A stretch of 64,000 nucleotides of DNA, from contig CAIIXF020000001.1 of NCBI GenBank assembly GCA_903813345.2, positions 2,542,001-2,606,000 on the forward strand. Direction: 5' to 3'. The stretch is from Owenia fusiformis (Eukaryota; Annelida; Polychaeta; Sabellida; Oweniidae). Below, in pieces: positions 5,278 through 64,000 of this stretch. Made by a program: the position numbers and the translations under genes. Position 1 is the first letter of the stretch. Every line of letters starts with the position of its first letter. The notes under the pieces were generated by a model. That model was given only the letters and a program-made list of their open reading frames with translations, did not search any database and was not told the DNA's origin.

Positions 5278-8200
5278 TCAGTTGCATTTTTTGATTACCT
5301 TGTACCAATCCTTTATGTTTGGTTGAATAGCTTTCACATCAGTTTTGTTGTCCTTAAGAATACTGCATGCTATGGTGCCCAATAGGGGATGTTCAAGGGC
5401 AGCATGCTTCTGCATCTCTCCTGGGTCATTGAGGCAAACCTTACACATGTTGCACACATACAGGATCTTATTCTTCAGGTGCATTTCCCTGGAATATAAT
5501 TGGACAGTAAACATGTTGCACACATACAGGATCTTATTCTTCAGGTGCATTTCCCTGGAATATAATTGAACAGTTTACATGTTGCACACGTACAGGATCT
5601 TATTCTTCAGGTGCATTTCCCTGGAATATAATTGGACAGTAAACATGTTGCACACATACAGGATCTTATTCTTCAGGTGCATTTCCCTGGAATATAATTG
5701 GACAGTTTACATGTTGCACACGTACAGGATCTTATTCTTCAGGTGCATTTCCCTGGAATATAATTGGACAGTTTACATGTTGCCCACGTACGGGATCTTA
5801 TTCTTCAGGTGCATTTCCCTAGAATATAATTGGACAGTTTACATGTTGCGCACATACAGGATCTTATTCTTCAGGTGCATTTCCCTGGAATATAATTGGA
5901 CAGTTTACATGTTGCCCACATACGGGATCTTATTCTTCAGGTGCATTTCCCTAGAATATAATTGGACAGTTTACATGTTGCGCACATACAGGATCTTATT
6001 CTTCAGGTGCATTTCCCTGGAATATAATTGGACAGTTTACATGTTGTGCACATACAGGATCTTATTCTTCAGGTGCATTTCCCTAGAATATAATTGGACA
6101 GTTTACATGTTGCGCACATACAGGATCTTATTCTTCAGGTGCATTTCCCTAGAATATAATTGGACAGTTTACATGTTGCGCACATACAGGATCTTATTCT
6201 TCAGGTGCATTTCCCTGGAATATAATTGGACAGTTTACATGTTGTGCACATACAGGATCTTATTCTTCAGGTGCATCTCCCTGGAATATAATTGAACAGT
6301 TTACATGTTGCACACATACAGGATCTTACTCTTCAGGTGCATCTCCCTAGAACACAATTGTACAGTTTACATTACCTAGATTTAAACCTGTTTAGTTCAC
6401 AGCGTGCAATAATAAAGGACATTGTTCATCATGTGCATCTCCTTAAAATACTATAGTACAGTTCACATGTAACATTCATATTAAAAAGAATTAATCAAAA
6501 AATAAAATAATATAAAAGACCTTAAATTTATTGTACAGTTCACATGCTGCAACAATACTGGACATTGTTCTTCTTATTTTCTAATTTGTGTAACATAACC
6601 AACTTGTTCTTAGAGGCTTCAAAATAAAGATTTTCAGAAAAACCAGTGGCAACATTGACTTGTAAATTTAAGAGCATGGGTTCTATCATTTATTTTGTTC
6701 CTACTACTTACTAATTTGTTTAAACTTAAAGAATATACATAGACATTTATAAGGTGTTCATTGTTGGCGCCCACTATACATAGAGGTTTATGCTATTTAC
6801 ATACCTGTGTTGGAGAAAGAGCTTGGGCTTGGTATAGAACCTCTGGCAGACTGGGCACACATATAGATGGCGCTCTGTGCTATGTTTCACTGCCTCAGCA
6901 GAACTACAGAAGGTTTCACAACATATCTTACACACAAAATGGTTGTCAGTGGTGTTACCATTAACAATTGCATCTTTTGCCTTACGTTTTGTCTGTTTCG
7001 TATTCAAATTACAATCATATCTATGAGAATCTAATAGGGCCATCTCACAAAAAGTATTTTCAAGACTAAATTGTTTTGAACGTTGAATTTTTACTGCGCA
7101 TGAGTTCTTAACACCAACATTTGTGACAGTAGAAAGATGGTGTTCTTGGACCGCTTTTGCATTTGGAAATACCATATCACATAGAGTACACACACATTTT
7201 GTCTCAGTTTTGCCACACAACTGACGATGTAACAATAACCCATAATTATTGTAGCACCATTTGTCACATGTTTTACAGTTGAATGTTTTTTGATCATGGT
7301 GATAAGAATGCTGTTTGAACTGTTTTTCATTTTCGTGAACTAACCCACATTGAGTGCAGTACTTTTTATTCCGTTTGAACTTGCATACCAACCTGTGAGT
7401 GTACCATATGTGTCCCGTATCCGCTTGTCTACTACCTGCTCCACATACTCTGCAGAATGCCTTACAATACACAGCGCAATCGTTGACCCAATGCTTCACA
7501 ATACTCTCCTCTGAAGTAAAAGCAACTGAACAACACGGACACTTCTGGAACACATTACGGCTATTGTCAGTTGTAATATGTCCATTAGACTGAGAGTTCA
7601 TCTCTTTGACAGGTTCTTTTGATTTTGGCTCTTCCTCATCATTTTCGCCTGGTTGCTTGTCAAGAGAATCATCCTCTACATCCTTCAGAGAGTATGGAGT
7701 AGATATAAGACAAAGAGCCTTGCCTTCTGGGGCATCTGCATCATAATTGCAATCTACATCTATAGGCTCATCTTTGACGGTTATGGTGTCAATAGGTTCA
7801 TCTTTGATGGTTATGATATCAATGGGTTCATCTTTCACTGTAACTGTATTCTCATCAGTAGATTGAGTCTTGCCTGCAAGAACATGAGATTCAGATACCT
7901 TGTTTGAAGGCATCATTTGTTCATCAATATTTTCTACTGCTTCTCCCATTGCCTTTAACTTCGCTTCAAAGTCGTCTTCTTCATCATTTTGTATTTCACT
8001 AAAGCACTTACTGTATGATTCTGGTGCAGATATTTTGAATTTCATAAGCAGGTCTTTTCCTTCATCTTCACTCAATAAACAGACTTCATTATCTGGGATC
8101 TTTTTTCCCCATGCAAATTCTCCAACATGAATGAATTTATCTTTTGATTTTTCCATTTCATCGTCCTTTTCTGTTTTAACAGAATGATTTGCATAACACA

Positions 8201-11200
8201 GCCTTTCGTGTACTTCCTTAAATCTTTTGTTTTTACAGGGGAAAAGACAGTGTTTGCAAGACACGGATTTATCTTTTTCACATTGTAACTTGTGAGCATC
8301 TAGTTCACATTTGTGCTGAAACACTGTAAAACATTCGAAACAAGTATGTAATTTCCCATCAAGTTTAGATTGGCATTCTATTTCGTGGTGCATAAAGGGT
8401 TTCTTACCATTCTTGACATCAAACTGAATCGCACAACCTCTACATCTTTTCTTTGCATGCTCTTTCAGACACGAACAATGATGTTGTCTGAGCTTGCTAT
8501 AGGGCTTCACAAAATAACAGTTGATACATCTCAGGCCTACGCTTCCATCAGGTTTTACATTCGAATACTTCCCACTGGTGATTCCATTTCCACAAAATAA
8601 ACATGGCCAAGTTTCTCCAAGGCAAGATATGCACTTATCAATATTTGGTAATAGTTTAGCCTCAGTCGTTTTTATATAATGTTCTGTCGTGCAATTTGAG
8701 CTCTCACATTTTGTATATAGCTTTCCCTTAATATACTTTAACCTATTTTTTCCTTCACATGTGACTTGGATTTGAGACCTCGACTTTTGGACAGATTTTT
8801 TGTCACAGTTATCCAGATGCTTCTTAGCCATTTCTTTAGATTTAAAAGTCTGCTTGCAATACATGCATATAACATGAAATACACTGGCTACACAATCATC
8901 CTCATGGTGGAGCCATTGATAAGCATTCACCAACTGAAAAGCACAGAGCTGACATTTCATTTGATCTGTAGAACATTCAACAGTGTGTTCCTCAAGATGC
9001 TTTTGGGTACGAAGGAGCCTTTCACAAAGAAAGCACTCATATCTTGGTGTCTCTAAACACCCAACCTCATGCTCATCAAGTTCTTTCTGGCTTGGAAAAG
9101 CATCTCCACATCTCGTGCAGACAACAAGACCATCAGTGTCCAAGCTGCACACAACACAGTGCTTATTATAAGCATTCTCCTTGGAAGGTAAAAACAGTGT
9201 CATACAAACTCTACACCCAACAACTTTTGATGCTGGGACACAAGATGACTTTTGATGTTCGAGGAATGCCTGCTGAGGAAATGATTTCCCACAGCCAATG
9301 CATAAATGTAAATTTCCATCAACAACTTCAACATCATTATCTCCCTTCATATCTAGATTTCCTTTTGGTTGTGCATGTTTTTTCTGAATAAGGCTAACTG
9401 TACTAGTTTTCCTAGCAGCATCTGTTGAAGTTGAAGTTCCATCAGCAGGCTTTGGAATGATCATGGTTGGAGTTACACGCTTGGTATGTGCTGAATTAGT
9501 TTTAGGTAAAGAGGATATGACACGAGAAGTTGTAGACTGCTGGCCCAAAATTGATGAGGAAATATTGTTAACTAATGGCATAACTTCACTTTTTCCTACA
9601 ACATTTATCTGTGGATTTGTGTTCCCAGTTGAAGCAGATATTTGAAGTATTTTAACTGTATCATTAGTTATGGGTCCCATTTTTGGTAATTGCAGAGTTA
9701 TAGGCCCATTTATATTTCCCTTCACCACCAAGGCAGCAACAGTTTGACTTCCAGGAGTGACCGATTCTGAAGTATTCACTTTTGACTGTAAACTCAAAGG
9801 TTTCGACTGGCCAAGTTGACTGTTTGGTGAATGCTGAAGTTCACACCTCTTCATATGCTTCTTTAGTTGCTGTTTAAAAAAGATTCTGTTACAATGTTGA
9901 CATTTCACCCTTGAAGACTGCTTATTGTCATTGCCTCCGTACAGATTTCCCTCTTTGCACTGCATTTGATGGTGGCCTAAACACAATGGATTGTAGTAGA
10001 TGTAGCCACAAAACTTACAAGGGTACATTTTATTATCTTGAACATGTTTAGTTCTCATCTTACAGTTAGCCCAATGCTTGTGCACAAATTCATCAAGAAA
10101 GACAGTCTTACACAGCATGCATTTTAATCTTAGTGGATTTGCGTTATAATCTAAGACTGCTACGTTTCTAAATATCCAGCAGTCTTTCTCATGTTCAGCG
10201 AGTAGACGTGGAGTTGGGTAGACTCTGGTCTTTGAGCAATGGCAACAAAAGACTGTTTCTCCAGTTTTCCCATGTAATGATCCACAGCGTCCTTCATGAC
10301 TCAAAACATGATGAGGCTCTGTGAACTTTCTGTTACAAAATCTGCAATCTATCCACTTTATGTTTGCACTCTCTCTTTGACTAATTAGCTCAAGTTCATG
10401 ATCTGTAACCGAAAGAGCTGTATTGACTACATTCAACATTTCTTCACAAGCATTCTCATCCATTAAATCATCCACAATTACTACATCATTAGATTTTCCA
10501 TCTAATCTTGGCTTTTTATTTCTTGAACTAGCTTTATTTGGACTTCTTTTCCTAGATACTTTACTTATTTCAAAATCTGGATCATCCCTGATATCATCAG
10601 CTTGCCCTGGTTTAATAAGGTCATCTGAGTCTGCAGTATCACTAGAATAATTATAATCAGGATCTTCATCTTCATTTGTTACGTTATCTTCTGTTATTGT
10701 CTCATTATCATCATTCTCAGTATCATTCATGTCACCCAATCTTCTACACCCAAACTTCTGATGACTTTTGAAAGTGGTGATTCTCCCAAAGGACTTGCCA
10801 CACTCACATTTAAATCTTTCCTCGTTTTCATTAATCTTCGCTTTTTCATTGACCATTTTTGTATTAGTTGAATCCTCAGTATTTTGTTTAATATTATAAT
10901 TGCTAGGTGAGGATTTGTCTGTCGCCCTTTTCAAAGCAGCATGTGGTAGACTAGGGCAAGTGGTCAATTTAATACTATGGTCCTCCATGGATGGCTTACA
11001 TATCGCTTCAGTGGGTTTAAATCTAGGTCCGCATGGAGTCTTTTGAATATCAGAAAACATGGTATGTTTGAGTGGAGTATTGTCTTTAGCTGTAAGAGTT
11101 CTGGGGCCACAAGTCTTTTCTCTAGCAACTTGAGGAAGTATTTTATATTTATGTTTGAGTCCTTCTTTAGATGGCTCTTTATCTTTTTTCGCTCCCAGTA

Positions 11201-12158
11201 TTCCTCTTGTTACATTATATCTTGTTTCATCAACTGGTAACACAGGGGCATTGGTCTTGGCATCGAATATTTGAGAACTTCTTTTCACCCTTTCATTTGG
11301 TAAATCTGGAATGTTAAGTTTGAAGGATAACTCTTCACTATCATTCTCATCAATCTCCTTTTTTATAACCACTTCATCGGGCTCAGCCTTGACAGCGGCA
11401 TAACATATTTCATTTTTGTTATCTTCCATGGTGTCAGAAGGAGATACGACACATAAAGGTCCTTCACACATTTCCATATGTCTGTGGACTTGGAGTATGT
11501 TCACAAATTTTGCTGAACATTCACACTCATATATGTAATGTGTTTTTCTCAAAGTTGGTGACAATTTTCCATATTTCCCAGTACAATCTACTCTGTGATT
11601 ATAAAATGATGTCATATTCGCGAAGAGTAGTTTGCATGCACATTTAATTGTTGGCCCATTGTAAAATATTTGATTTCTATTGACATCCTGATCAATACTA
11701 TTTCTGCTCTTTGTTCTTGGAGCCGTATTATCATCATTAGCATCCACTTGATTCAAATTGATCTTATCTGCATTTGCACAATCAACAATTCCATCAGTAC
11801 CACCATTGTGAAATAGTTTCAAATTATCAGTAATAGCATGGACACAACTTACTACATGTTGCTCCCAATCCTTTTGATTTGTAAATATTTCAGTTGAATT
11901 ACATCTACTTGAACATTTCAATTCACCATTCATAGATTTCAATGTGGCAAAGTTGACACTAGCTACATCATTAACTACCTTAGGTGTAAGAACTATGGGG
12001 CAAAAGATGCAAGAATGATTCTTCGTGACTGAAACACATGACTGACAAGAATTATTAGAATTTAAAACACCACTTTCACCTTTCCCACATGTGTGACATA
12101 TGTTACCCTTCTGTATAATGCCATCCAAGCCTGGGTCCCTGGCACATTGTTTTGCCAT
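5278..12158 (-). CDS. Giant multi-C2HC/C2H2 zinc-finger protein, two coding exons
   Basis: Exon 1 is 12158-6805 (donor GTATGT, phase 2) and exon 2 is 5488-5278, giving about 1854 residues. The join restores a perfect finger, CPVCQRFYTKPKLFLQHREMH (C-x2-C-x12-H-x3-H): the first His is in exon 1 and the second His in exon 2, which is strong support for the model. I count about 20 finger-like units. Most are C-x2-C-x12-H-x4-C (C2HC) rather than C2H2, for example CIGCGKSFPQQAFLEHQ ending in SSC; the last three are classical C2H2. Between fingers lie acidic and S/T-rich linkers, a basic stretch (SRKRSPNK...RNKKPR, a likely nuclear signal) and three tandem VKDEPID-type SUMO-like motifs (7755-7850). 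A nuclear, nucleic-acid-binding regulator is likely; the target is unknown. ATG 12158 follows an acceptor-like CTGTACCAG, so a 5' untranslated exon is expected. The end is uncertain: either TGA at 5278-5280, or splicing at 5297 (AAG/GTAATC) into sequence near 5246. Confidence 0.8.
5437..6369 (-). repeat. 66-bp minisatellite made from the zinc-finger exon-2 acceptor
   Basis: About 14 copies of a 66 bp unit. Read on the minus strand, each copy is intron end (CAATTATATTCCAG or ...TCTAG) followed by the first ~40 bases of exon 2 (GGAAATGCACCTGAAGAATA onward). The copy nearest the coding exon is the true acceptor (exon starts at 5488). Upstream copies differ by only a few bases, and all keep AG. 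Because 66 is a multiple of three, use of the next acceptor (5554) would insert 22 residues in frame. Most further copies carry an in-frame TAA. Decayed copies continue to about 6590 with growing divergence. Confidence 0.9.
6370..6600 (-). repeat. Decayed outer copies of the 66-bp repeat
   Basis: Words such as TACAGTTTACAT, GTACAGTTCACATG, GGACATTGTTC and CATGTGCATCTCC recur at roughly repeat spacing, but with many substitutions. They look like older copies at the exon-1 side of the array. The rest of the intron, up to 6804, is unique-looking. Confidence 0.5.
7755..7850 (-). repeat. In-frame triple VKDEPID coding repeat
   Basis: Three near-identical tandem units inside zinc-finger exon 1 encode the (V/I)KDEPID motif separated by I/T-rich spacers. 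Each fits the hydrophobic-K-x-E SUMO acceptor consensus. VKAEPDE and IKKEIDE occur elsewhere in the same protein. SUMOylation is inferred from the motif only. Confidence 0.6.
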
Positions 12159-14240
12159 TATGGATGCCTGGTACAGGTAATGTCCCTATAAATAGATATA
12201 TATGTTTAAACATACTACTGACGAAATATACCAATACGCGATAACGTTTAATTTCGTTCAGTTTAGCAACCTCTCGTTTGAAGAGCTCTCATGTATGGTA
12301 CAACTTCATCTACATCCGGGTTCTTTCCCATTGGATTACACAGGGGTGCTATTTTCAATGCCGCACTGCGGCTCTATTAAACATTTATGTAGAGTTTCAT
12401 TTGCACAAACGATAGGTATGTATGTAATTAAGATATATGACAAAGCAATTTGAGCTATAATCCCCAAATCCGAAGTAATGTGTAGTTAAAAATGCCGTCC
12501 AATTCCAGTGACGTCACTGATATACCAGAAATTGCTCAGACGCCATCGAATATCGAAAAATATAAATAATGTTACTTTGAATCTCCGATTATCTTTCTGA
12601 TTATTGAATAGATTGGATTATATAACTATGCTTGAGGGCTGATGGAAGATCAGAAGCTGAGAAACGTTCAGAGTAATCGACTCGTTCGGCGGGCCAATGA
12701 AAATTTGTCCCTTCCAAAGCGATGCATCATGGGAGATATTTATGTAAATTACCACCTGAACTCTTATCGCGAATAGGAGTATTACAATGGATAGACAATG
12801 TAAATGCTGGAAGCATATTATCTTTAAAAATCAGAATTTAGGACAAAACTTACATTCTCCGAAGCATTTTAGCAAGTTTCTTGAGATCCCTAGGTATCAA
12901 TGCATTTGGATGTAAATTAAGAACTAATTCTTTTCAAAAATTATTGAATTTTTCACCATACACATTTCTTTACATGAAGTCATATTCCTTTTATAAGACA
13001 ACATTAAGTGTAACAATGCAATGAACTAACTCAAAATCTGACATCTAAAAGAGAGAAAGCGCAATAGCACTTGGAATTTACTCTCAACTTGCCCATCCCT
13101 TCTAATCCCTATATAGTTGAGATTCTCAAAATTTCACACCAATTGTCTTTGATTTTTTTGATGAGTTACAACGGGATAAAATCCCAGTGACATTTCACCC
13201 CATGCCCTGAACTAAATGTGTTTTGTCATCCTGTGTGCTTTCTTGACAAAACATACCCACATAGCAAAAGAAATCATACATTTAACACATGATTACCTGT
13301 TATCTATTGAAGGTATCTTTGTTAAGCATATGTGGAACTCATAGCTTTTCCAGTCATTAGGCGTCACAATATAACATACTTTGTGTGTCAGTCACCAAGG
13401 ATTGAGTATAAACCTGAAATATATTTAAATAAATAAAATACATGAGATCAATAAACAAATGTTAAAAATATTTTGATTCTTGTGCATACTTTAAATATAT
13501 ATCTTATGAATCATGAAATTAAGTGAATTTTTTCCATACTGTATACAGCATTCTAGCTCAACTCAAACCATTATGTCATCTATTAAACTATCAATATAGC
13601 AAGTCATCTGTTGGCGTGTAATATGCAGGCACAATCAAACAACATTTCTAGAATAAGAAACTTTTCAGCCATATCAATTCATTGGGATTGTTCATATCCA
13701 AAAAGCCTCTACCAAGATAGATAGATGGTCTAAACTTCACTTTAGTACTTCAACATACATGTATAAATAATATCCTTGTTGATCTTGAAAGTCAGGTTTA
13801 ACATATTTTCAATGAAACTTTAACTGTAAGGGTCAAGTTATCAATTTCAATCCAAGGAGTCCAGTTATCACCTTGACAACCGTTTAACTAGTGACCTAGG
13901 CTTGAGTTTCTTATTGGTTATATTATGGAATGCAGTTATGTGAAATAGCGTCTTTGGATTGGCTGGAATCAGATATACCTTGCCTAGCTATATGTGAATC
14001 TGAAATTATTTCAAATGTAGTGGTGCAATTTTCTATATATTGGCAGCTCAGAAATAATGAGTAATGGTTGGATAAATTGTTTGAATTGAAAAAAAAACAC
14101 TGTCTTATTAAGGCAAAAAATCATAAAAACCTGTGAAAATAGATCCAAGGTGATAACTCATTTAGATCACAGGGTTACCAATATTTTGATGACACTTTAT
14201 TTTCTAAAAAAGAAAAAGGCCTACTCATCTTCCAATAACC
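12159..14240. other. Upstream region of the zinc-finger gene
   Basis: No coding sequence is supported. Just upstream of ATG 12158 in transcript order is an acceptor-like site, so the promoter probably lies within the next kilobase or further. The sequence from about 12240 to 12740 is less AT-rich than its surroundings and could hold the promoter, but no core element is diagnostic. The rest is AT-rich and unremarkable. Confidence 0.4.
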
Positions 14241-15435
14241 CAGATGCGAGTAGAAATAATCTTGATTTACAAAATTCAGTCAAAGTAATATCATATTTGA
14301 AATCTACATGTAAAATTACATCTAGAAATGTGGTTTTAAAAAGTGGTTATCAACTTTGAAAAATTAATTTTCTTTGAAAATGTGACTTCTAGCTCGGGGA
14401 GATTCCCCATAGACCCCATGCTATAAAATCACGAAAAATGAAATAACTTTTCTTTTAGTGGACAGATAATATTTTGCTTTACTGGACATATTTTCATTAG
14501 TATAAGTATCAGACACATAAGGGTTACCGTATTCTCTGTAATTAGCGCCCAGGGCGTTTAGAAAATTGAAAATACATTATTTAGACCATTCTAATAAGCG
14601 CCCATGTATGAAAGAAATCAGAAATCCCGAGGAATTTCATGTATGGCAATTTTTCTTGACAAGAATGCATTTTCTTCAACATATTTTTATAATAATATGA
14701 CAAGTGCTGTTATTGGAGAGAATACGGTAAAGATCGCTTAGACAATATTGACAGTGGTTGAAGACCCGTCTATGTCTAATTTATTTCCGGCACGCCCACT
14801 TTGTCATTATCGCCGATTACCTTCAATATTTCCACTAGAGACTGCTGGATATCGATCTAAAGTTATACATTATTTCTAATTTGATGAGAGATCATCATTA
14901 TTCGTGCAAAAGCCGTGTAAAAGTCGAGAAACATTAAAAAGAAACCAGAAAGTTCATGACCTTGACATGCGCAGAACATCTGCGCAGTAGCTTTTGAAAT
15001 TTCTGAATGCCGATAAAGAACAATTCCTTCATTCATTATGGACTATTTGGAGACAATATTAGCATGGTATGGTGTGGGAAGCACCCATCGATAGATATGT
15101 ATCGAGAGGATGCATAGAATTACAAAACGCGTCGTGTTTACAGCAGTTTTAGGGTAAGTACTCTATTATCGCCCGCTCCTGGATTTTGAGAAATATTTTT
15201 TTCCTGATATATTCTTCAATTCTTGTTGATTCCTCGATGTTTCTTGAACTTTGTGAAGCGGGGTGGGCGCTTATTAGAGAGTGGGCGGTAATTACAGAGA
15301 ATACGGTATATGAAAATTGAGCCACTTAAATTGATAATATTCAAGTTTAAGGGAACTTTCTTATATACCTGCCATGTTAATTGACCCGAATCAGCCACCT
15401 GGTGGTGAAACTGGTAACTACTTACTCGCATTTGG
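14241..15435. mobile_element. MITE-like element (CAGATGCGAGTAG ends), split by a TA-element
   Basis: The ends are CAGATGCGAGTAG (14241) and ACTCGCATTTGGG (near 15434), in inverted orientation. An inverted relative lies at about 20742-21167 and aligns over nearly the whole length. This copy is interrupted by the 780 bp element at 14527-15306. No coding capacity is seen. The superfamily is unknown. Confidence 0.65.
14527..15306. mobile_element. 780-bp TIR element with TA duplication
   Basis: The terminal inverted repeats start CCGTATTCTCTGTAATTA and continue into a GCGCCC/GGGCGGT-like stretch. The element is flanked by TA on both sides (14525-14526 and 15307-15308). The related element at 20742-21167 has the uninterrupted target, TTTTCATATAACCC, at 20861-20874, with only one TA. 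That empty site confirms the ends and the TA duplication, which is typical of Tc1/mariner-like transposition. There is no transposase, so it is non-autonomous. Confidence 0.8.
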
Positions 15436-15873
15436 GTAATTGCAAACATACTGTTAATCTCGAGTTTTGTGTCCATTATAGGTTCTCTTCAACATGTTCA
15501 TGAAGAATAATTTGACTGAATTTAGCAACCTGACCCATACAAAACCCGTAGCACTACCTTGTTCTATATTTTCAGCCATATTTTTCAGAGGCCTAAAAAT
15601 GTATTGACGTAAAAATCAAGAAACAAAATACAAGCTTTGGAGGGCATCTTACTTTCTGCTAGTTAGACCTTGATATATATTATGGTATTGAAAAGGTTAA
15701 ATTTTTGAGATATAAATGAATCTTATAAAACTCATATCTTTCCACAATTTAGAGTAACCCTGTATTATCATAGCTCCACATTATTACTACTAGACTGTAA
15801 TACACTTTTTTCTAAGTTTCTAAACAACATTTGAAAACCAAGCTACAATTCATTTTTAATTTCCTCAATACTA

Positions 15874-16264: not shown

Positions 16265-16433
16265 TAGCTTGATGCAACAAGGGGCAACAAGGATGGGTTA
16301 CCTGAGACTAACATATGTAAAATGAATAGAAACCAAGGAAATATATAGAGGTTATTTACTAGGAGGGATTCAATATGGGTTTTATTCCGAGGGACAATAT
16401 GATATTTCCTAAAGGCCAGGAAATGCTGATGTT

Positions 16434-31200: not shown

Positions 31201-34200
31201 GGGTTTATCGGCAGAACAGGAACATTTTTCTTTTTTATCGAGAGAGCTGATTCCATCACTTCTTAAGATGGAGGTTGGATCTAAAAGGGGATTCCCCGTT
31301 TGACTGGCCCGGAAGTACCAATAAATGGAGAAATTTGACGGTTGAAAAAAGTTAAATATTGCAATCAAAAACAAAAATTTCTTCGTTCTGCCTATAAACC
31401 AAGATAATTGTGGATCTCATTCAGTCTGTTGGAAACATACTAGGGCCTATACATATATACTTTATGAATAAAACATTATCCCATGTCCTTCTGTGTCCTT
31501 GATGATGTATATTTTCAAAAGTATCGGAGATGGCTTTGGAAATAGTCATTCCAGGTAACATTGAAATGGCAAAACGTGTCAGTAGATAAACTGCCATTAA
31601 CGACAATGACGAAATGTTGACAAGTACTTAATACACTAAACAAAACGGTAGCAAATAGCCTGGTATGCAGGAACAGTAGGTTTGCAATGAATAATTACTT
31701 TGCATACATTCATGCGCTATATGAATCAGTCAGATAAGATACATGTTAATAATTATCAATTTATTAGATAACAATTTGGTTTCGTTGCCAACAATTTTTT
31801 TAGCGACGCACATGGCCAATGAAAAAAATTCAATTTAGAAATTGGTAAGAATAGCCTCCTTTTTTGGCTCACACAGTGAGCCTATGGGATCGACCAGCCA
31901 TCCATTGGTCCATCCGTTGGTCCGTCCATCCATCCGTCAACATTGGCCGTACAAATTAAAAATTGCTTTTCGGATTGAGTCATATCCACATTCATTTTAT
32001 GCATATCCATAATGCTTATTTGACCTATCATCGTCATTTCCCAAGTTCACCCGGTTTCCGAGATATTGCTGATTTTGACGTCAAAAAGTCAAATTTTCTG
32101 TAAATATGAAGGTTCTACACTGTGTGAGCACAGGACCGTGGGTCCTTTATTTAAATGAACATTTAGCGCCAAAATGTTACATGGAACCATCAATCGTTTG
32201 ATGCTCTAGGTGTTTTTGTATTATTGTTAAATATCTGTCGCATATTATCAAGGAAAATTGGTTTCAGCTGATCCAAAATTTGCAGTGCATGAATATATAG
32301 CATGGCAGTTAAACCCAATCTAGCACCGAGAAAATTCAGAAAAATATATTAAGTCGGATTTGGGTTTGTGAACTAAGTCCCTGTTAATTTAGCTATACTA
32401 AGAAGCACAATGAGCAGCAATTATCCCGATATACTACTGTACTCCAACTCATATTTGAAGCTATTATATTTGTGACTTCTTCAAAATTGTCCAGCCTCTT
32501 TTTTAATTTCTTTGATCAAAATCTTTTAGGACCCACAATAAATTTAATAAAACAGTACCTTCCTTCCTACCTTTTATCGCCAAGCACTGGGCAGAAATAT
32601 TGTATATACTCAGTGAAATAAATTCCCCAGAATTTCGCTACTATTATATTTTGCAGATTAAAACTATTGGAATTTTGTGGCTATTATATATGACAAATTT
32701 TTCAAAACTCATGAAAAGCGCAAATATAGCAGCACACAAAAATGTCCAGGAGTACAGTATATTATTTTCCTTCTCAGCACCATGAACAAAATCCCCAGAG
32801 AAATGTAATGACATCACATGTTGTAAGTTGTGTAATATGTGTTCAAATAGTGAGGAATTAATTTGTGTATGGGGCTTTTGAGACATAAGTTCCAGATTCA
32901 GAAGCCTTACTTTCATTTATTGTGTTTCTCTAGATGAAGGACTTCTACTAGCCTGACCAAGACTACTAGTGCCATCTATATTTCTATCTGTATAGAAATT
33001 CCTCTTTTATCAAAGTTTCTACCGACGCAAATCACATTTTCACATTATTATAATGCAACATTTATATTTATTCTTCAATGATCAAGACCAGCTTAATGTT
33101 TTTCAGATGTTGGTGAAATTTACTCCAGATTGTTCGACCATAAACCTGTGATACAGGGTGAGATCAACTATTTCATCAAAGAGTTTGAGGTAAGTCAGTG
33201 TGATACAGTGTGAGATCAACTATTTCATCGAGGAGTTTGAGGTAAGTCAGTGTGATACAGGGTGAGATCAACTATTTCATCAAAGAGTTTGAGGTAAGTC
33301 AGTGTGATACAGGGTGAGATCAACTATTTCATCAAAGAGTTTGAGGTAAGTCAGTGTGATACAGTGTGAGATCAACTATTTCATCAAAGAGTTTGAGGTA
33401 AGTCAGTGTGATACAGGGTGAGATCAACTATTTCATCAAGGAGTTTGAGGTAAGTCAGTGTGATACAGGGTGAGATCAACTATTTCATCAAGGAGTTTGA
33501 GGTAAGTCAGTGTGATACAGGGTGAGATCAACTATTTCATCAAGGAGTTTGAGCTAAGTCAGTGTGATACAGTGTGAGATCAACTATTTCATCGAGGAGT
33601 TTGAGGTAAGTCAGTGTGATACAGGGTGAGATCAACTATTTCATCAAAGAGTTTGAGGTAAGTCAGTGTGATACAGGGTGAGATCAACTATTTCATCAAA
33701 GAGTTTGAGGTAAGTCAGTGTGATACAGGGTGAGATCAACTATTTCATCAAAGAGTTTGAGGTAAGTCAGTGTGATACAGGGTGAGATCAACTATTTCAT
33801 CAAAGAGTTTGAGGTAAGTCAGTGTGATACAGTGTGAGATCAACTATTTCATCAAAGAGTTTGAGGTAAGTCAGTGTGATACAGGGTGAGATCAACTATT
33901 TCATCAAGGAGTTTGAGGTAAGTCAGTGTGATACAGGGTGAGATCAACTATTTCATCAAGGAGTTTGAGGTAAGTCAGTGTGATACAGGTTGAGATCAAC
34001 TATTTCATCAGAGTTTGAGGTAAGTCAGTGTGATACAGGGTGAGATCAACTATTTCATCAAGGAGTTTGAGGTAAGTCAGTGTGATACAGGTTGAGATCA
34101 ACTATTTCATCAAAGAGTTTGAGGTAAGTCAGTGTGATACAGGGTGAGATTAACTATTTCATCAGAGTTTGAGGTAAGTCAGTGTGATACAGGGTGAGAT

Positions 34201-38069: not shown

Positions 38070-38205
38070 GAATTTACATATTGTGCCATCACCCTATGGA
38101 ACCCCAACAAAGTGAGAATTTACATATTGTGCCATCACCCTATGGAACCCCAACAAAGTGAGAATTTACATATTGTGACATCTCCCTATGGAACCCCATC
38201 AAAGT
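38022..38205 (+). repeat. 46-bp x4 repeat spanning the BLOC1S5 stop codon
   Basis: Four copies of GAGAATTTACATATTGTGCC to CAAAGT, with substitutions mainly in the last copy. The first copy encodes the C-terminal ENLHIVPSPYGTPSK, and TGA straddles the junction into the second. Copies 2 to 4 are 3' untranslated. Confidence 0.95.
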
Positions 38206-38456
38206 GAGAAGAGGAAAGGATATTCATTTCTTCTTATTTGGTTTGTAATTCAAAAAGAAGTATAGGTATTCAAATATTTTTTTTTAGTATTTAAGATTGT
38301 TGTACTAGATCACAAGGTACATGATGCTTTGTAAATGTATGAATGTTGATAGCATTCCAATGCTAATGAATTGATGAATATTTGTGTTAATATTCAGTAA
38401 ATATTTTAATGCTTAATATAATGTCAATATGGTATATGTTCTGTATATATGAAAGG

Positions 38457-39516: not shown

Positions 39517-39519
39517 ATG

Positions 39520-40700: not shown

Positions 40701-40703
40701 ATA

Positions 40704-41609: not shown

Positions 41610-41689
41610 TACTTAGTCACACTTCCAGCGCGGGTTACTCGAGTCTCTAGCCAGTGGCCTTAGAAGAAGGTAAAGCGCGGGCATTTTGG

Positions 41690-52700: not shown

Positions 52701-55700
52701 GAAGCAAACAAACTGGGAAGCCTCTGTGGTAACTCAGTAAATCCTTCAGTTTATACATCTACTGGGAGTAACATGTTTGTTCTGTTCAAGTCAGATGATA
52801 GTCTTGTGAAATCTGGTTTCCGAGCTGAATATACTCTTGTTGCAAGTAAGTACATAAAATATTTATGAATGTGTATAAGTATGACATGTATATTGCACTA
52901 ATATAAAAATGTTAAAAGATTTATTGTATCAGACAACATTTTAACCCTAGCTGTACATTTTACGACCCTTGATAGCAAGTTGCTGCTACGGCCCAGCTGT
53001 AGTGGCTTAAGCCTTTATAGCTCAGTTGGTAGAGCATCAGACTTTGGATCCAGGGGTCCTAGGTACGATTCCCACACGCGGCATTGAATTTAGCACACTT
53101 TCTTTCAATTTCTTTATCTGGCTTGTTACACTATGCTTGTTAGTTAGTTATTCATGGGGCATTCGTTACATTGAACCTAGGACCCCTGGATCCATTACAT
53201 ACACATAGGTTTTAGGCCAATATAAAGATGGCAGCAGTGGTACTATTTTATTATGTAAGTCAAGGAGGCCGATTAGCTCCCAGGATCCAAACTCGATATT
53301 TTCAAACAATGAAATTGTCGAAATTTCGTTATTTTCTGATTCAAATCAATATCTCAATCATTTCTTGTGAGTTTTGTAATTTTTCCTTTGGAAATTAGAC
53401 TAAAATTCATGATTCAAATGTTGAAATGAACAAATTGGTAGCTTTTTAAATTCGAATTTGTAATCATGACATGCCCATATATGGCAAAAATATTGATGTT
53501 GTACTCTGGGAGCCAATCCTTATTGATGCAAAACATTCATTGCTCTGCCATCTTTATTTGAAAATAATTCCTATGGCCCTTTAGCCTATGTTTTAACATC
53601 TGATTCCTTAATCCTGGTGCTTGTGTTTTAGATGGACCCTCCCCCACTTCAGACCCAACACAACCACCTTCAACTGGTCAATGTGGCAGTCCAGCCATTG
53701 CACCCAATTTACCAAACACAGTCCGTGGCTTTGAAGATTCTGTCAGTAAGGTGGTTAATGGAGAGGATGCTGTACCTCATAGTTGGCCCTGGCAGGTTAT
53801 GCTCACTACATTGAATGGAAGACACTTCTGTGGAGGAAGTTTATTGAATAATTACTGGGTCATCACAGCTGCTCACTGCTCAGTCAAGTTGGTATATCTA
53901 CATAGATTTAAGGCAGAGATAAAGATGGCAGCTGTGTTAGAATTTTATTCCATAATATGTAAAATTGATTGCACTGCCATCTTTATTTGGAAATTGTTTC
54001 TATTGCTCCAGCCAATATTACTATTAGGGTAATTCTAATAATTTCTGATATCCTACTGCCAGAAATATATTCTTCATGCAATCTCTCATATGTGTGGAAT
54101 TCCATGAGGTTATGGAAATGATTGAAAATGAAATGTGATATTTTAAAATTTCCTAGACTTTTTGTGTGAAATTTCATTGTTGTCACTCGTCTAGTTTAGG
54201 AGATATAGGTGTTGCCTTCTGGTCTCCTTCTTTTAGGTCACCCTGTATTGATAAATTAAATGTAATCTTCTCATGGTTCCCTCAATATCCACGCATGATA
54301 TTGCTGACTGACTCAAAATCTTGTTTCTTTCTGATGTGCTACTACTTCTAACCAATTCACAACTTTGAACCATTTTCAATTTTATAGTCAACGAGAAGAT
54401 CAGGTGTTTGTTAGAGTAGGAGAACATAGCAAAGATGCTTCAGAGCCAAGCCAAAGGAACTATGCTATCAACAGATTTGTCATACATCAACAGTACATCA
54501 GCAGAACCCTCAACAATGATATTGCTCTATGGAGGCTTGAGGAACCTGTACAGATGTCAGATGAAGTGAGTTCAGTATGCTTGCCTGACACAGGGGATGT
54601 CCCACCTGGCACATTCTGTATGCTCACTGGATGGGGAACTATTATAGGTACAGTGGTAGAATTTTATTTTAGAAGATAATATGAAAATAGATTGATTGTA
54701 CCGCCATCTTTATTTAAAGATAACCTTTATTGACATTGAGCCTATGAATGGAATCTTTAGTTTTTATTAGCTTCCAAAATAGTTTTCTTTGATTTAATCA
54801 GAGGGTGGAGCTACTGCAAGAATTCTCCAACAGACAGATCTTCCAATTGTAAGTACGCAGGAGTGCAATCAAGCGGACTGGTATGATGGAGATATTAAGC
54901 CTGGAATGGTTTGTGCTGGCCATGAGGAAGGAGGAACAGGTTCTTGCCATGTAAGTGAGAACAACTAGAGACCAGAAATCCTCAGTCCATTATTCTCTTA
55001 CTATGACATCAATATCTCTATGGTTACATAAGTTGATTTAGGAATTCTTTAACATTTTACGAAGTTTCTGTAAATAGCTCTGAATTCCTTTTAAAAAATC
55101 ATGGATATCAACTTAATGCTAACAATTATTATATGCTTATATGCAGGGAGATAGTGGTGGCCCCTTGGTGTGCAGATATCCTGATTCCAGCTGGGAGCTT
55201 TATGGTATTGTAAGCTGGGGAGCAGTATGTGCTGGGGCCAAAACTCCTGGAGTATTTGTCAGAGTGCCTTACTACATGGATTGGATTAATCCAAGACTGA
55301 CATGTAAGTATTTGTTCTTGTGATTTTACAAGGTTTTGGGCAGATTTAAAGATGGCAGCAGAGGTCGTATTTTATTAAAAAGAAGATAATGTTAATTAGA
55401 TCAATCGCACTATCATCTTTATTAAAAATTATTTCTATTAATCAAGCCTATGTGATTTTGGTTCTCAAAAAAGTTAAGACATTATTAGCTTTAGTAATGT
55501 ACTCCTTGGAAATCCTCAGCTTATTTAATTATGTTCTCTATTTAGTACCAGCCCTGCCCCCTCTCCCCGAGGCTTGCAGTAGCCAAGTTATTGTGTCTAC
55601 AACAGAAGACCTTGTCTTCCCACGATACTACGACTCTCCCAATGAAGATGACATGTACAGGAACCAGCTGACTTGTGAATGGTTAATACAGGCACCACCT

Positions 55701-58700
55701 GGAGAGGTATATGCATGTTCCGTGTTTCAATGTTTTTTCATTGTCTTTCATATCAGGCACTATCAGGCACTATCAGGCACTATCAGGCACTATCAGGCCT
55801 CAGGTTGGGCCGGGCTGTAATGTCAATCTTCTAGCTTGGATGATACCATGAGTACAAGTGAAAAAATAAACATTATAATACTGAATCAAGTGTATATGTT
55901 TCTTGTTAATATATTGCTTAACCATTCTGTGATGATTTATGGTTCATGGTTCAAGGGCTAATGATTAACAAATTAGCCAATCAATTAATCTATCAACAGG
56001 AATAGAATGTAATCTTCCAAAATTACAACTTTATTGCTTCAAGTGAATATGTAAGTCCCCTGGGGTTGAACTAGACAAAATTATCATCTTTCAATTGCAA
56101 TTCAATAATTAAATTTCAATATATGGAGGAAATAAGTTCTAACTTGTATACACTGCCCGGGCAACGATACTCAACGGTGAACAACACCACAAACGAGCGT
56201 TCGATTTGCTAAACGATATGCGTCACCCTTTAATGACCTGATTGGCTTTCATGATCTTTAGCCTTGGAATTATTGTATCCTTTGATATTTTCTTCACAAT
56301 AATTCAAAGAGCAGATGTGAAACTGTGCAATACTTTTTTTAGTGATAAGACTGAATTTTCTTTGCAGAATGTTATATTTAGCATCTACAGTCTCTCTGTT
56401 GAATATCACGAGCAATGTTATTTTGACTCCGTAAGTCTTTATGATGGTTCATCAGAGCAAAATACACAATTAGGAAAACACTGTGGCACTTCACCTCCAC
56501 GCACAAAAACGTCGACAGGAAGGAACATGCTAGTAGTGTTTAAGTCAGATGGGTCTATAGGAGGACGAGGCTTCAAAGCATCAATATCTTTTACTGGTGA
56601 GAAATATTCCAATCCAATTTTTTACCTTAAAAATTATTCATATTTGATGTTTTATTGATGCAGCATGTACATTAATAAAGTATTCTATTTTAAAGGGTCT
56701 TTTCATGATAAAACATTATAATTGGAGCAGGATCCTTTAAATCTTAAATTAAAATTGTCTTTTGGAAAATTTTGACATGTCTCTCTCACCATGTTCATTT
56801 TTTGATATTTTGAACTAGTGGTGTTGTATTGGTTTCAGATGATACAGGAACAACAACGGCCCCTGTAACAACAACAGCCCCTGTTACAACAACAGCCCCT
56901 ATAACAACAACAGCCACTGTAACAGAACCCCCAGTCACCAGTCCATCCACCACAGATTCCCCAGTTACTAACCCACCTAGTACAGGTTTCAAAGACTCCT
57001 GTTTGCGCATACACAATTTGAAGAGAGCCCTTCATGAGGACACACCTAATGTGATATACTCCGACACACTTGCAGTTTCTGCCCAAACATGGGCAAATCA
57101 CCTAGCTGCTACTGATAGCTTTGAACACTCAAGTGCTGACAATTATGGAGAGAATTTATATCGCTCTTCGAGTACTCAGCCATTAACTCCTGATTATTGT
57201 TCAACGGCAACTTCAATGTGGTAAGAACAGTTTTTTGTATGGGAATTTGAGGTATAGAAAGTACTAACTAGAGTACTGCCTCGTAATGCCAGGTCTACTT
57301 TATCTTATGCCATTGTGTGATTCATACAGTTTTACACTTAGATATCAGGAATATGCAAAATGACACATTTCATTTAGGTACTGAATAACAATTAGTTTTT
57401 GTCTTTACCCAAAGTATTTTTGAAAGGGGTATACTGTATAAATCAACTGATTTCAAATAATATGACTCATATTAATTCACACAGTTATACTTCCAGGTAT
57501 GATGAAATAAACCAGTATGACTACAATAACCCAGGATTTAGTGGAAACACAGGTCATTTTACACAGGTAAGTACAATAAAATAGAGTTTCAATTCATCAT
57601 AACTATTTAATTTAAGCTAGTGTAGTACTAATAAGTTAAATAAACTTGCAGTCATCAGGGTGTGGTATCAGGCCTATTGGTGATATATGAATGTTAATCT
57701 CTTATATGGTTGAAATAATCAGGATTTTTTTGGCCATGGTGCATCATTAGGATTTTAGACATGCTGGTCAAAGATGAACTATGGGCCAGTAGCAATGTAA
57801 TTTTTCTATACATGCTAAAAAGTAAATTGCACCTTGTTTTTGTCTTGCTGTAGGTTGTTTGGGCAAGCACATTGGAGATTGGATGTGGAGAAACCATATA
57901 CACTACACCTGATGGTAGTTGGAACAGAGTTGTGCTGGTTTGTCAGTACAGTCCACCTGGAAACTATGGGAACCAATTCACCAGTAATGTTAAACCACTT
58001 CTTTCAGGTGATTCCTAGCTTTTGTTATACAATTTTATACACAATTTTGTTATTCAATTTTACAATGTTTGCATTAATATTCCTCATTGACATTGAGTGT
58101 AAAGGCTGATCAACTATTGTGTGGTCCTTGGAATAACTCCTTTAATCTTCTAACAATCTTACTATACTGTTACACTTGTAAGTATATATCCTGACATTTA
58201 CTACATCTACAAAGGATGAGTCTGGGAATGAGTCTGGGTATCGACTTAGAAAATATTGAAAATTGTTATGTCTGAAAAACCAACTCAATCACACATATTA
58301 TTAAACTTCAATATCTTATCCTTCTTCTGAGAGTACAAAAATATCAATTTTTATCACAATTAATGAAAAATATTGGCATCAAAGACAGTGCATATCACTT
58401 TGTCAGAATTGAAAAAAAATCAATGGCAAATATTAAATGAATTATTTATACAAAGGGTTTAAAACATATCCTCCAAAACATTGCTTACTTTCTTTGTATT
58501 ATGACATTGAATGGCATTTCTGGATAAGTGAATTGGTGTTTATCTGGGTAATCAAGGGATTATAGTCACTCAAAGTTACTGAGCATCCAGTTTTGAGACT
58601 TCAATTGTGTTAGTGAAGTTACACATATTTCAGTCAAATTCATGCTGAGCACAACATTCCGGTTTCAATTTTATAATCTCTATACATGACCCTGGTGATG

Positions 58701-61700: not shown

Positions 61701-62043
61701 GTTCTGCCCATGATACCAAAGTCTTAAAATCACATTGACCCTCATATTATTAACAATATTATTCTAATACCCTAAAATTGTTTCAGAATGGACCCCTGGG
61801 ATGTGATTATAAGACTAGGTGAATACTCGAAGACAGATGATGAACCCCTGACGCAAGTAATTCCTGTCATTCAAATCATTAATCACCCTGAGTATGACCC
61901 TGAAACCACAAACAATGATATATCCTTGCTGAGACTTGGAGATCCAGCTGAGCTGAATGGTTATGTTGAGAAGGCATGTCTTCCTGCAGCAGAGCCTGAA
62001 CCAGGACGTGAATGTGTCGTAACTGGTTGGGGTACCACTGAAG
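45500..62043 (+). CDS. Secreted CUB/trypsin/CAP mosaic protease (ovochymase-like), right end missing
   Basis: 24 exons with continuous phase encode 1611 residues before the window's last visible donor: 45500-45584, 47448-47572, 49488-49725, 50139-50278, 50409-50661, 50823-51045, 51244-51506, 51734-51876, 52012-52335, 52608-52845, 53632-53887, 54388-54647, 54802-54950, 55147-55303, 55546-55706, 56368-56596, 56839-57220, 57497-57566, 57854-58007, 59482-59809, 60089-60158, 60747-60900, 61415-61589 and 61787-62043. The order is signal peptide ([20 protein letters not shown]), CUB, CUB, S1 protease 1, CUB, S1 protease 2, CUB, T/P-rich linker, CAP, linker, CAP, S1 protease 3 (Ser exon outside). CUB plus several S1 domains recalls ovochymase/oviductin egg-coat polyproteases; two CAP domains are unusual. 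The product is extracellular. The least certain donor is exon 11 (AA/GTTGGT). A single transcript is inferred from phase, not proven. Confidence 0.8.
45718..46160. mobile_element. 443-bp TIR element with TGTAA duplication
   Basis: The ends are CACGCCCGGTGATTGTACAA and its inverse; the arms of about 50 bp include GATTAGGCGATTTC. It is flanked by a perfect 5 bp duplication, TGTAA (45713-45717 and 46161-46165). CAC...GTG ends with a 5 bp duplication could fit a Transib-like group, but this is tentative. It lies in protease intron 1. Confidence 0.75.
46238..47262. mobile_element. Palindromic element family, copy 2
   Basis: GGTATCGATATGG (46251) and CCATATCGATATC (near 47240) are inverted, with TTTCTCTTAAA-type words and a long central stretch related to 22070-23360 in the opposite orientation. 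It lies in protease intron 1. Confidence 0.6.
48768..49168 (+). repeat. ~91-bp tandem repeat in protease intron 2
   Basis: About five copies of a unit with GCATTTTCAAAAAGCTTTAC, ATTGGCCATATTCC and TTACATTCTTGGACTTAGAA. Unlike the splice-junction arrays it does not touch an exon. A dispersed-repeat piece (TTATCCCACCGAACAAAGTT, CGTCCGTCCG tract) lies before it at about 48285-48370. Confidence 0.8.
50139..50661 (+). CDS. Mosaic protease: CUB 2 (exons 4-5)
   Basis: Residues about 150-280. [54 protein letters not shown] and [10 protein letters not shown] give a complete CUB domain with four Cys. The exon split inside the domain is at the same place as in CUB 3 and CUB 4, as expected for modules duplicated within the gene. 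Confidence 0.85.
50823..52190 (+). CDS. Mosaic protease: S1 domain 1, trypsin-like (exons 6-9)
   Basis: Activation site EAR/IVGG near residue 306; catalytic His in VVTAAHC (about 351), Asp in GYDLAMLRL (about 399), Ser in [10 protein letters not shown] (about 493). The specificity-pocket residue, six before Ser, is Asp (KDSC), which predicts cleavage after Arg or Lys. All three catalytic residues are present, so it should be active once cleaved. Cysteine GCGVP before the activation site could tether the propeptide. Confidence 0.9.
52190..52845 (+). CDS. Mosaic protease: CUB 3 (exons 9-10)
   Basis: [44 protein letters not shown] and [10 protein letters not shown]. This is a full CUB domain directly after protease 1, in the same exon as the protease's C-terminus. 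Confidence 0.85.
53008..53194 (+). ncRNA. tRNA-derived sequence with a 20-bp inverted repeat
   Basis: A box-like TAGCTCAGTTGGTAGAGC and B box-like GGTACGATTCC occur at tRNA spacing (53016-53072). The acceptor stem does not pair well, so it is probably a SINE head or tRNA pseudogene. TGGATCCAGGGGTCCTAGGT (53045-53064) recurs as an exact inverse at 53175-53194. It lies in protease intron 10. Confidence 0.6.
53632..55303 (+). CDS. Mosaic protease: S1 domain 2, chymotrypsin/elastase-like (exons 11-14)
   Basis: A T/P/S-rich linker and CGSPAIAP precede the activation site SVSK/VVNG (about 717). His is in VITAAHC (about 759), Asp in NNDIALWRL (about 807) and Ser in [10 protein letters not shown] (about 902). 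The pocket residue six before Ser is Gly (GSC) rather than Asp, which argues against trypsin specificity and for hydrophobic or small side chains. The exon-11 donor (AA/GTTGGT) is weak but gives the right phase. Confidence 0.85.
55546..56596 (+). CDS. Mosaic protease: CUB 4 (exons 15-16)
   Basis: [48 protein letters not shown] and [10 protein letters not shown]. It is a complete CUB domain. A 10 bp microrepeat (TATCAGGCAC, about five copies, 55751-55799) lies about 45 bases into the intron that splits it. Confidence 0.85.
56839..58007 (+). CDS. Mosaic protease: T/P-rich linker and CAP domain 1 (exons 17-19)
   Basis: A mucin-like linker of TTTAPV repeats leads into a CAP (SCP/TAPS) domain: [55 protein letters not shown] and [14 protein letters not shown]. 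The CAP signature His and Glu positions (FEHSS, GENL, GHFTQ) are all present. The last exon can splice on (TTTCAG/GTGATT, phase 1) or, if unspliced, stop four codons later. Confidence 0.85.
59482..60900 (+). CDS. Mosaic protease: linker and CAP domain 2 (exons 20-22)
   Basis: Almost identical to CAP 1 in exons, intron borders and much of the introns, so it is a recent tandem duplication of exons 17-19. The T/P linker is shorter, with fewer TTTAPV units. Differences include K for M before the exon-20 donor and A for T in GEAIYTT. As in CAP 1, read-through of the last donor would stop within three or four codons (PGES-stop). Confidence 0.85.
61415..62043 (+). CDS. Mosaic protease: S1 domain 3, N-terminal part (exons 23-24)
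   Basis: Activation site NGR/IVGG near residue 1480; His in VITAAHC (about 1522), Asp in NNDISLLRL (about 1570), and [11 protein letters not shown] at the end of exon 24. The exon with the specificity pocket and Ser lies beyond the window, so activity and specificity cannot be judged. The donor of exon 24 (GAAG/GTAATG) has been amplified into the adjoining minisatellite. Confidence 0.85.
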
Positions 62044-64000
62044 GTAATGTTGCAATTGTGTTGTAATTGGTTGGGGTACCACTGAAGGTAATATTGCAGT
62101 TGTGTTGTAACTGGTTGGGGTACCACTGAAGGTAATGTTGCAATTGTGTTGTAATTGGTTGGGGTACCACTGAAGGTAATATTGCAGTTGTGTTGTAACT
62201 GGTTGGGGTACCACTGAAGGTAATATTGCAGTTGTGTTGTAACTGGTTAGGGTACCACTGAAAGTAATGTTGCAGTTGTGTTGTAACTGGTTGGGGTACC
62301 ACTGAAGGTAATGTTGCAATTGTGTTGTAATTGGTCGGGGTACCACTGAAGGTAATATTGCAGTTGTGTTGTAACTGGTTGGGGTACCACTGAAGGTAAT
62401 ATTGCAGTTGTGTTGTAACTGGTTGGGGTACCACTGAAGGTTATTTTGCAATTGTGTTGTAACTGGTTGGGTTACCACTGAAGGTAATATTGCAGTTGTG
62501 TTGTAACTGGTTAGGGTACCACTGAAAGTAATGTTGCAGTTGTGTTGTAACTGGTTGGGGTACCACTGAAGGTAATGTTGCAATTGTGTTGTAATTGGTT
62601 GGGGTACCACTGAAGGTAATATTGCAGTTGTGTTGTAACTGGTTGGGGTACCACTGAAGGTAATATTGCAGTTGTGTTGTAACTGGTTGGGGTACCACTG
62701 AAGGTTATTTTGCAATTGTGTTGTAACTGGTTGGGGTACCACTGAAGGTAATATTGCAGTTGTGTTGTAACTGGTTAGGGTACCACTGAAAGTAATGTTG
62801 CAGTTGTGTTGTAATTGGTTAGGGTACCATAGAAGGTAATTTTGCACTTGTGTTGTAACTGGTTGGGGTACCACTGAAGCTAGTATTGCAGTTGTGTTGT
62901 AACTGGTTGGGGTTTGACTGAAGGTAATATTGCAATTGTGTTTTAATTGGTTTGAGTACCACAGAAGGTAATGTTGCAATTGTGTTGTAATTGGTTAGGG
63001 TACCACCGGAGGTAATTTTGCAATTGTGTTGTAAGTGGATGGGGTTTGACTGAAGGTAATATTACAATTGTGTTGTAACTGGTTGGGGTTTGACTGAAGG
63101 TAATATTGCAATTGTGTTGTAATTGGTTAGGGTACCACTGAATGTAATATTGCAATTGTGTTTTAATTGGTTGGGGTACCACAGAAGGTAATATTGCAAT
63201 TTTTTTTAACTGGTTGGAGTACCACTGAATAGTCCATTTGTCATCCCTATACATCCAATAGTGAACCTAGAAATTGTTAAAAGTACGATGTTTTATGGTC
63301 GATTTATGATAATAAGAGTTTTCTGAAGTGATTTAACTGGCTTGGGCAAAAAATTATATAGGCTGATTAGGGAGGGGTGCAATCGTTTAACATGGCGTTG
63401 ACTATTGACTTAGTGTTGGGATACCACCATATACCTGGTATGTTACCATGGTAATAGATACAAAATTTTTCCCCAAAGTTATTTTTTTGGCAACCCAGCT
63501 AAATCACTCCCATAATCCCTAAAGATAGTATTTACACAGAAAAACATCATACTTTTAAATATTTATACGTTCAGAAAATGACAAATGGACTAGAAGGTAA
63601 TGTTGCAATTGTGTTTTAATTGGTTGGGGTACCACTGAAGGTAATGTTGCAATTGTGTTTTAATTGGTTGGGGTACCACAGAAGGTCATGTTGCAATTGT
63701 GTTGTAATTGGTTGGGGTACCACAGAAGGTAATGTTGCAATTGTGTTTTAATTGGTTGGGGTACCACAGAAGGTAATGTTGCAATTGTGTTGTTATTGGT
63801 TGGGGTACCACAGAAGGTAATGTTGCAATTGTGTTTTAATTGGTTGGGGTACCACAGAAGGTAATGTTGCAATTGTGTTGTAATTGGTTGGGGTACCACA
63901 GAAGGTAATGTTACAATTGTGTTTTAATTGGTTGGGGTACCACAGAAGGCAATGTTGCAATTGTGTTTTAATTGGTTGGGGTACCACAGAAGGTAATGTT
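62014..64000 (+). repeat. 44-bp minisatellite made from the protease exon-24 donor
   Basis: About 27 copies from 62014 to 63237, then 355 bp of non-repeat sequence, then at least nine more copies to the window end. Each unit is about 30 bases of the exon end (GTAACTGGTTGGGGTACCAC then TGAAG or AGAAG) plus 14 intron bases (GTAATGTTGCAATT). Most copies keep AAG/GTAAT; some have AAAGTAAT, AAGCTAGT or GAATGTAAT. The first copy is the genuine donor at 62043/62044. Use of a later donor would read G-N-V-A-I-V-L-stop. Confidence 0.95.
63238..63593 (+). other. Non-repeat spacer inside the 44-bp array
   Basis: About 355 bp without the 44 bp unit. TAGTCCATTTGTCAT at the left and ATGACAAATGGACTA at the right (63575-63594) are exact inverses, which suggests a TIR element inserted in the array. 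TA is a possible target. Confidence 0.65.

Follow-up and report, generated by a model that had tools for sequence, protein, structure and literature searches.

Why do three unrelated genes of one annelid chromosome each carry a minisatellite lying across the border between an exon and an intron? The question is raised by a stretch of 64,000 nucleotides from Owenia fusiformis (GenBank assembly GCA_903813345.2, contig CAIIXF020000001.1, positions 2,542,001 to 2,606,000 of the forward strand), hereafter the window, in which a C2H2 zinc-finger gene, BLOC1S5 and a trypsin-like protease gene hold such arrays and in which a further array lies over a stop codon. An earlier note on this DNA judged three such arrays in 64 kb hard to put down to chance and pointed to a junction-linked way of making repeats, with selection tolerating growth only into introns as an alternative. 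We consider it likely that the arrays are the annelid counterpart of the "mirages" of amphioxus, i.e., ordinary tandem duplications kept where the extra copies fall outside the coding sequence, which is the note's alternative in a broader form and the explanation that fits best. The kind itself is already named in lancelets; what is new here is its occurrence in an annelid, an estimate of its density and the variant at a stop codon.

Exon-edge arrays of the window

Tandem Repeats Finder (TRF) recovered all four arrays that had been noted, and these belong to three genes, since BLOC1S5 holds both array 2 and the array over the stop codon. Junctions 1 and 2 were placed by mapping annotated Owenia fusiformis proteins onto the DNA under the GT-AG rule: the zinc-finger gene corresponds to P0053 (2205 aa, C2H2 type), and P0001 is 100% identical to the BLOC1S5 protein spliced from the window. 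A lancelet origin of this DNA, considered in view of the literature on mirages, was rejected on these matches to Owenia. No Owenia protein was present among the 34 matches to the protease query, so that junction 3 was placed by means of a paralogue together with the GT rule and Pfam. All copy numbers come from one haploid assembly.

Array 1 (5445-6372, minus strand; 66 bp x 14.1 copies, 95% match) lies on the acceptor of a zinc-finger exon mapped by P0053 to 5299..5488 on the minus strand, the acceptor edge, base 5488, falling within the array. Its unit joins 44 bp of exon start to 22 bp of intron end, the array reaches out of the exon into the intron preceding it (6804-5489), and the AG at the acceptor position is kept in 14 of 14 copies. 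Array 2 (33147-34846, plus strand; 52 bp x 32.8, 97% match) lies on the donor of BLOC1S5 exon 2 (VGEIYSRLFDHKPVIQGEINYFIKEFE; 33107..33189, plus strand, by P0001 mapping), where GAG/gtaagtcag places the donor at 33190; 43 bp of exon end and 9 bp of intron start make up its unit, and the GAGGTAAGT donor is intact in 29 of 33 units. Array 3 lies on the donor (/gtaatg) of a trypsin-like protease exon (61787..62043, plus strand) and comes in two plus-strand blocks, at 62013-63229 (44 bp x 27.7) and at 63593-64000 (TRF row from 63592; 44 bp x 9.3), the latter running off the window end. Here the unit consists of 31 bp of exon end and 13 bp of intron start, and GTAA after the exon end is kept at 31 of 37 unit anchors. 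The description of units made of exon and intron sequence, with the splice dinucleotide at a fixed place, thus holds for nearly all copies, as does the assignment of the zinc-finger array to an acceptor and of the other two to donors. The arrays had also been said to start at an exon edge: their units do straddle the edge, but arrays 1-3 begin 31-44 bp within the exon and then run into the intron.

The fourth array (38022-38210, plus strand; 46 bp x 4.1) covers the BLOC1S5 stop codon, TGA at 38067-38069, as the earlier note had seen, and its extra copies, downstream of the stop, presumably form 3' untranslated sequence. Edge copies escape homogenisation in arrays 1 and 4. The intron-most unit of array 1 is its most diverged, with 10 mismatches to the exon copy where the others have 0-6, and degenerate, older-looking copies of the unit, recognised by eye only, lie deeper in the intron at about 6373-6590 (minus strand). 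In array 4 the first and last copies share a variant that is missing from the two middle copies.

The 66-, 52- and 44-bp units are mutually unrelated and each is the host gene's own exon and intron sequence, which bears out the view that they are not one transposon; compared with one another, they show neither the sequence shared across genes nor the terminal repeats of introners or transposon-derived introns. A transposon-like sequence is present inside array 3, which had been described as one uninterrupted run from 62014 to 64000. The 44-bp array is there, but an inverted-repeat element of 363 bp at 63230-63592, resembling a miniature inverted-repeat transposable element (MITE; ends TAGTCCATTTGTCAT, GAA on either flank), interrupts it. 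From its two matching blocks array 3 appears to be a single array split by the element, and this suggests an array older than its MITE-like insertion.

The intron that carries array 3 is not new at its position. A protease paralogue at 54.6 kb agrees with the array 3 exon in the codon and phase of its donor (TGWGTII-E), which is followed by an intron of 154 bp (54648..54801, plus strand) without an array, so that for the protease gene, the only one to which this comparison applies, the intron looks older than its array. A third protease copy, at 51.5 kb, resembles the 54.6-kb paralogue by eye, and TRF found no array between 49.2 and 55.7 kb of the window.

The annotated proteins for arrays 1 and 2 each contain one copy of the exon stretch, so that the site adjoining the exon body is the one spliced in the annotation: P0053 reads ...LFLQHR-EMHLKNK..., with the repeated exon start present once, and VIQGEINYFIKEFE is likewise present once in P0001.

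Recurrence in a genome sample

The earlier note had proposed scanning the genome for tandem repeats that overlap splice sites. Such a scan was run on 280 kb, divided over 28 pieces of 10 kb, whose positions had been set beforehand, mostly at even spacing and with their content unseen, but were not random; 21 of the 28 lie on C1, the window's chromosome, and seven on contigs C2-C7, and no piece overlaps the window beyond shared interspersed repeats. The published genome has 505.8 Mb, 26,966 genes and 43% repeats (PMC9977687). With a minisatellite defined by a TRF period of 20-250 bp and at least 2.5 copies, 35 of 116 merged TRF rows pass, or about one minisatellite per 8 kb. A 29th piece (L029), in which one array would pass this filter, was added after the statistics. 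The edges of the 35 arrays were translated in six frames and read by eye, and six edge peptides were compared with Pfam and three with the PDB. As the edges were searched selectively, the count of junction arrays is a lower bound.

At least three of the 35 arrays straddle splice junctions, and the boundary-straddling structure is therefore one that recurs in this genome. An array with a 36-bp unit (piece L014, 5377-5923) lies on an acceptor of INTS11, where the PDB match (E 1.8e-19) runs through the repeated VIMPG; another, with a 54-bp unit (L018, 9418-9907), lies on the acceptor of an FCHO2-like exon (PDB match E 5.7e-9; Pfam without support); and a third (L025, 7803-8489) lies on the donor of a MACPF-domain exon (Pfam E 6.2e-9; PDB without match). 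TRF gives the last a unit of 127 bp, but most of its donor-like sites are spaced 62 or about 125 bp apart. Together with the window, donors are thus affected in arrays 2, 3 and L025 and acceptors in array 1, L014 and L018. In L018 every copy of the array stays open in the coding frame, and an upstream acceptor, if used, would insert 18-residue repeats there in place of a stop.

Three further arrays were left out of this count. One (L001, 1047-2862; 32 bp x 57) fills much of an Atrophin-family intron and begins 8 bp past the donor, which thus lies outside the array; one in L012, read by eye, begins 48 bp inside an intron; and one in L020 was also read by eye.

Whether this recurrence exceeds chance is less secure. 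In a model that assumes 5-9 introns per gene and takes gene number and genome size from PMC9977687, 0.9-1.6 of the 35 arrays would be expected at junctions, and the three that were found give P 0.06-0.21. With minisatellites this dense (35 in 280 kb), the claim that chance can hardly account for the window's arrays is not established; the proposed scan shows that the structure recurs and leaves its excess insecure.

Mirages and growth outward from coding sequence

The closest known system is that of amphioxus, for which Canestro et al. 2002 is the reference cited. There, minisatellite-like tandem duplications lie over exon boundaries of Adh3 and of the globins BflGb6 and BflGb9; either exon end can be affected, and AG or GT is kept by many, not all, copies (PMC3087553). 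In the passages on these genes regular splicing seems undisturbed, edge copies escape homogenisation, the mechanism is called unclear and mirages are termed a possibly general phenomenon in cephalochordates (PMC3087553). PGBD5 has since been added to the mirage genes, with troponin C cited (PMC3902484). The Owenia arrays likewise span a donor or an acceptor with a unit length that differs per gene, keep AG or GT in many but not all copies and are less homogenised at their edges. They differ in belonging to an annelid and not a cephalochordate, in reaching 33-37 copies and in including one array over a stop codon; moreover, normal splicing and length instability were tested for the lancelet mirages, whereas the Owenia arrays are known from sequence and annotation. 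A full-text search of open-licence literature, little of it aimed at Owenia or annelids, found no report of annelid mirages, and the minisatellites described for an earthworm metallothionein gene are intronic, not boundary-spanning, in the portion of that account consulted (PMC12783039).

Other systems share single features. In human segmental duplications, minisatellites (average 30-bp units, 4 copies) occur in exons or at exon-intron boundaries (PMC2812944) and, as in Owenia, change gene structure; the accounts given of them concern copy-number differences between paralogues and are tied to new introns, whereas the Owenia protease intron looks older than its array. Similarly, in the Rogers model, as outlined in PMC2891723, introns are gained through tandem genomic duplication that takes in splice-site sequence; there one duplication creates an intron, whereas in Owenia an existing protease intron, with position and phase shared by a paralogue, was lengthened.

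A simple course of events would account for the arrays as annelid mirages. The founding step may have been slippage or microhomology-mediated duplication of a unit spanning the exon edge, and either would fit the microhomology of 4, 4 and 3 bp that the three acceptor arrays show at their founding breakpoints. Later growth would have proceeded by unequal exchange and homogenisation. If the spliceosome keeps using the site beside the exon body, i.e., the donor that comes first or the acceptor that comes last, the remaining copies would leave with the intron, and selection would therefore set no reading-frame limit on outward growth. The same logic could apply to the stop-codon array, whose extra copies would fall downstream of the stop, while inside coding exons a duplication would survive mainly when the length of its unit is divisible by 3.

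The repeats within coding sequence agree with this last expectation. Six of seven hand-collected coding arrays have units divisible by 3 (18, 30, 54, 60, 84 and 90 bp; binomial P 0.007), the exception being a weak 2.6-copy repeat with a 40-bp unit (L028). Three come from the window: two in-frame repeats in the zinc-finger gene, both on the minus strand (2190..2345, 84 bp, 1.9 copies; 7758..7835, 30 bp, 2.6 copies), and an in-frame Thr/Pro-rich repeat that belongs to the protease gene cluster and lies in an open frame (56849..56924, plus strand, 18 bp, 4.2 copies). The sample contributes the units of 54, 60, 90 and 40 bp. Its four arrays in long coding frames are a 54-bp in-frame minisatellite closely preceding a putative nucleotide-diphospho-sugar transferase domain (L008, 614-1057; Pfam), a 60-bp minisatellite of 25.6 copies that is open in frame over 510 codons, adjoins a rhodopsin-type receptor domain (7tm_1; Pfam) and apparently lies within coding sequence (L021, 1365-2897), and those of L017 and L028, taken as coding by open frame only. 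When the common filter (20-250 bp, 2.5 copies) is applied, which the 84-bp and 18-bp arrays fail, four of five coding arrays are divisible by 3 (P 0.045). The arrays at coding edges have units of 66, 52, 44, 46, 36, 54 and 127 bp, of which three of seven are divisible by 3, near the one-third expected by chance.

Several observations weigh against this explanation. Few arrays, and these selected by hand, underlie the frame rule, which L028 violates. The present ends of array 2 share just 1 bp of microhomology. The L018 copies, being open throughout the coding frame, could be translated, and use of the exon-side splice site would follow from annotation for only two of the six straddling arrays. 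There are also signs of a tie to junctions as such. Three of nine window arrays lie at junctions where random placement predicts about 0.55 (P about 0.018), a value that depends on 64 junctions roughly estimated from annotated proteins and open reading frames, in a window chosen for its arrays; the count of nine takes the two blocks of array 3 together, and the filter drops the array at 48767-49169 (a 181-bp merged row of 2.2 copies). The sample gives 2-3 times the chance frequency as its point estimate, itself a minimum, so that a modest junction bias is possible. Finally, acceptor-like motifs score in the top 5% in 5 of 35 sample units (binomial P 0.029 uncorrected), two of these five, both from L011, being one sequence in opposite orientations.

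Such signs are what would be expected if splice sites, or breakage coupled to transcription or splicing, seeded the repeats and made junctions hotspots, as the earlier note had favoured, and the L001 array, which begins just 8 bp into its intron, would suit that idea too, as would the selective search that makes the sample count a minimum. We nevertheless regard a generator of this kind as unlikely, and it is not established by an excess that is at most 2-3 fold and, at P 0.06-0.21, statistically insecure. Splice-motif scores of the 35 sample units show no overall shift from matched random segments (Kolmogorov-Smirnov P 0.61 for donors, 0.45 for acceptors), and 3 of 35 units reach the top 5% of donor scores (binomial P 0.25, uncorrected). 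The test is a weak one: its splice-site weights are general metazoan values untrained on Owenia, the true arrays 1 and 3 score only 0.17-0.18 (0.095 for the second block of array 3), and in array 1 the best-scoring site differed from the real acceptor. Arrays in long coding frames are about as frequent (4/35) as junction arrays (3/35), no verified splice site lies within the stop-codon array, and the units share nothing except the junction.

A role in regulation is a different matter, in which decoy donors or acceptors would steer splicing to stop-containing isoforms and so tune expression. A minisatellite of human gene 6-16 (IFI6/G1P3) is said, in the title of the study on this interferon-induced gene (NAR 1995;23:1854), to provide multiple splice donor sites of its transcript. 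The Owenia copies resemble it in carrying splice donors and differ in that the exon-side site is the only one seen, in two annotated proteins. Two features could be taken in favour of such regulation. Splice dinucleotides are kept in most units (29/33, 31/37, 14/14), and if splicing passed over the first donor, or took an acceptor further upstream, the reading frame would meet a stop within roughly one unit in five of the six arrays (1, 2, 3, L014 and L025), although array 1 has its nearest extra copy open and reaches its stop one unit later. However, retention is expected regardless among units 90-97% identical, a stop follows from almost any out-of-frame insertion, and lancelet mirages reportedly leave normal splicing undisturbed, so that we give this explanation very little credence. 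Still more improbable is that the arrays are repeats collapsed or over-expanded by a noisy long-read assembly. Copy number can err in an assembly of PacBio Sequel reads from one male, polished with Arrow and Racon and scaffolded (PMC9977687); yet the arrays, at 0.9-2 kb, are far below the read N50 of about 26-31 kb, their units bear distinct variants, array 3 holds a transposon-like insertion, and the same form occurs at independent loci.

Read in the way we prefer, as annelid mirages filtered by selection, the straddling arrays number six in 344 kb of this genome, half of them from a window selected for its arrays, which suggests that they originate from a high density of minisatellites together with a simple selective filter. 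More tentatively, and with somewhat less than even confidence, we propose that the edges of coding sequence (donor, acceptor and stop codon) act as one-way valves for tandem growth throughout the genome, with thousands of boundary minisatellites as the outcome; three arrays per 280 kb scale to about 5,400 genome-wide, with a Poisson range of roughly 1,100-15,800. If this is true, any duplication crossing such an edge would be released from the frame rule and could expand outward, and the resulting arrays may make introns longer and serve as a source of spare splice sites and of new exons. The Owenia genome could then serve as a test bed for the filter, i.e., a frame rule in exons and freedom at edges, with perhaps thousands of cases, and the idea of a splice-linked generator becomes a measurable excess, at present 2-3 fold in the sample and not significant.

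Further repeats in the window

Three other repeats lie in the window. At 28226-30147 a segment of 960 bp occurs twice in tandem with no difference (an exact match of 962 bp at offset 960), which may be a very recent duplication or a duplication made in assembly. A long inverted repeat at 42850-43502 (AACAGGAAATGACAA and its reverse complement) resembles a foldback element, and copies of it in sample piece L013 match at 83-91% over about 630 bp. Finally, an element of about 910 bp at 40702-41611, with inverted ends of the TACAGGGTGTTCAAAAA type, encloses an imperfect 171-bp duplication detected by TRF, and a related copy of this element is also held in L013.

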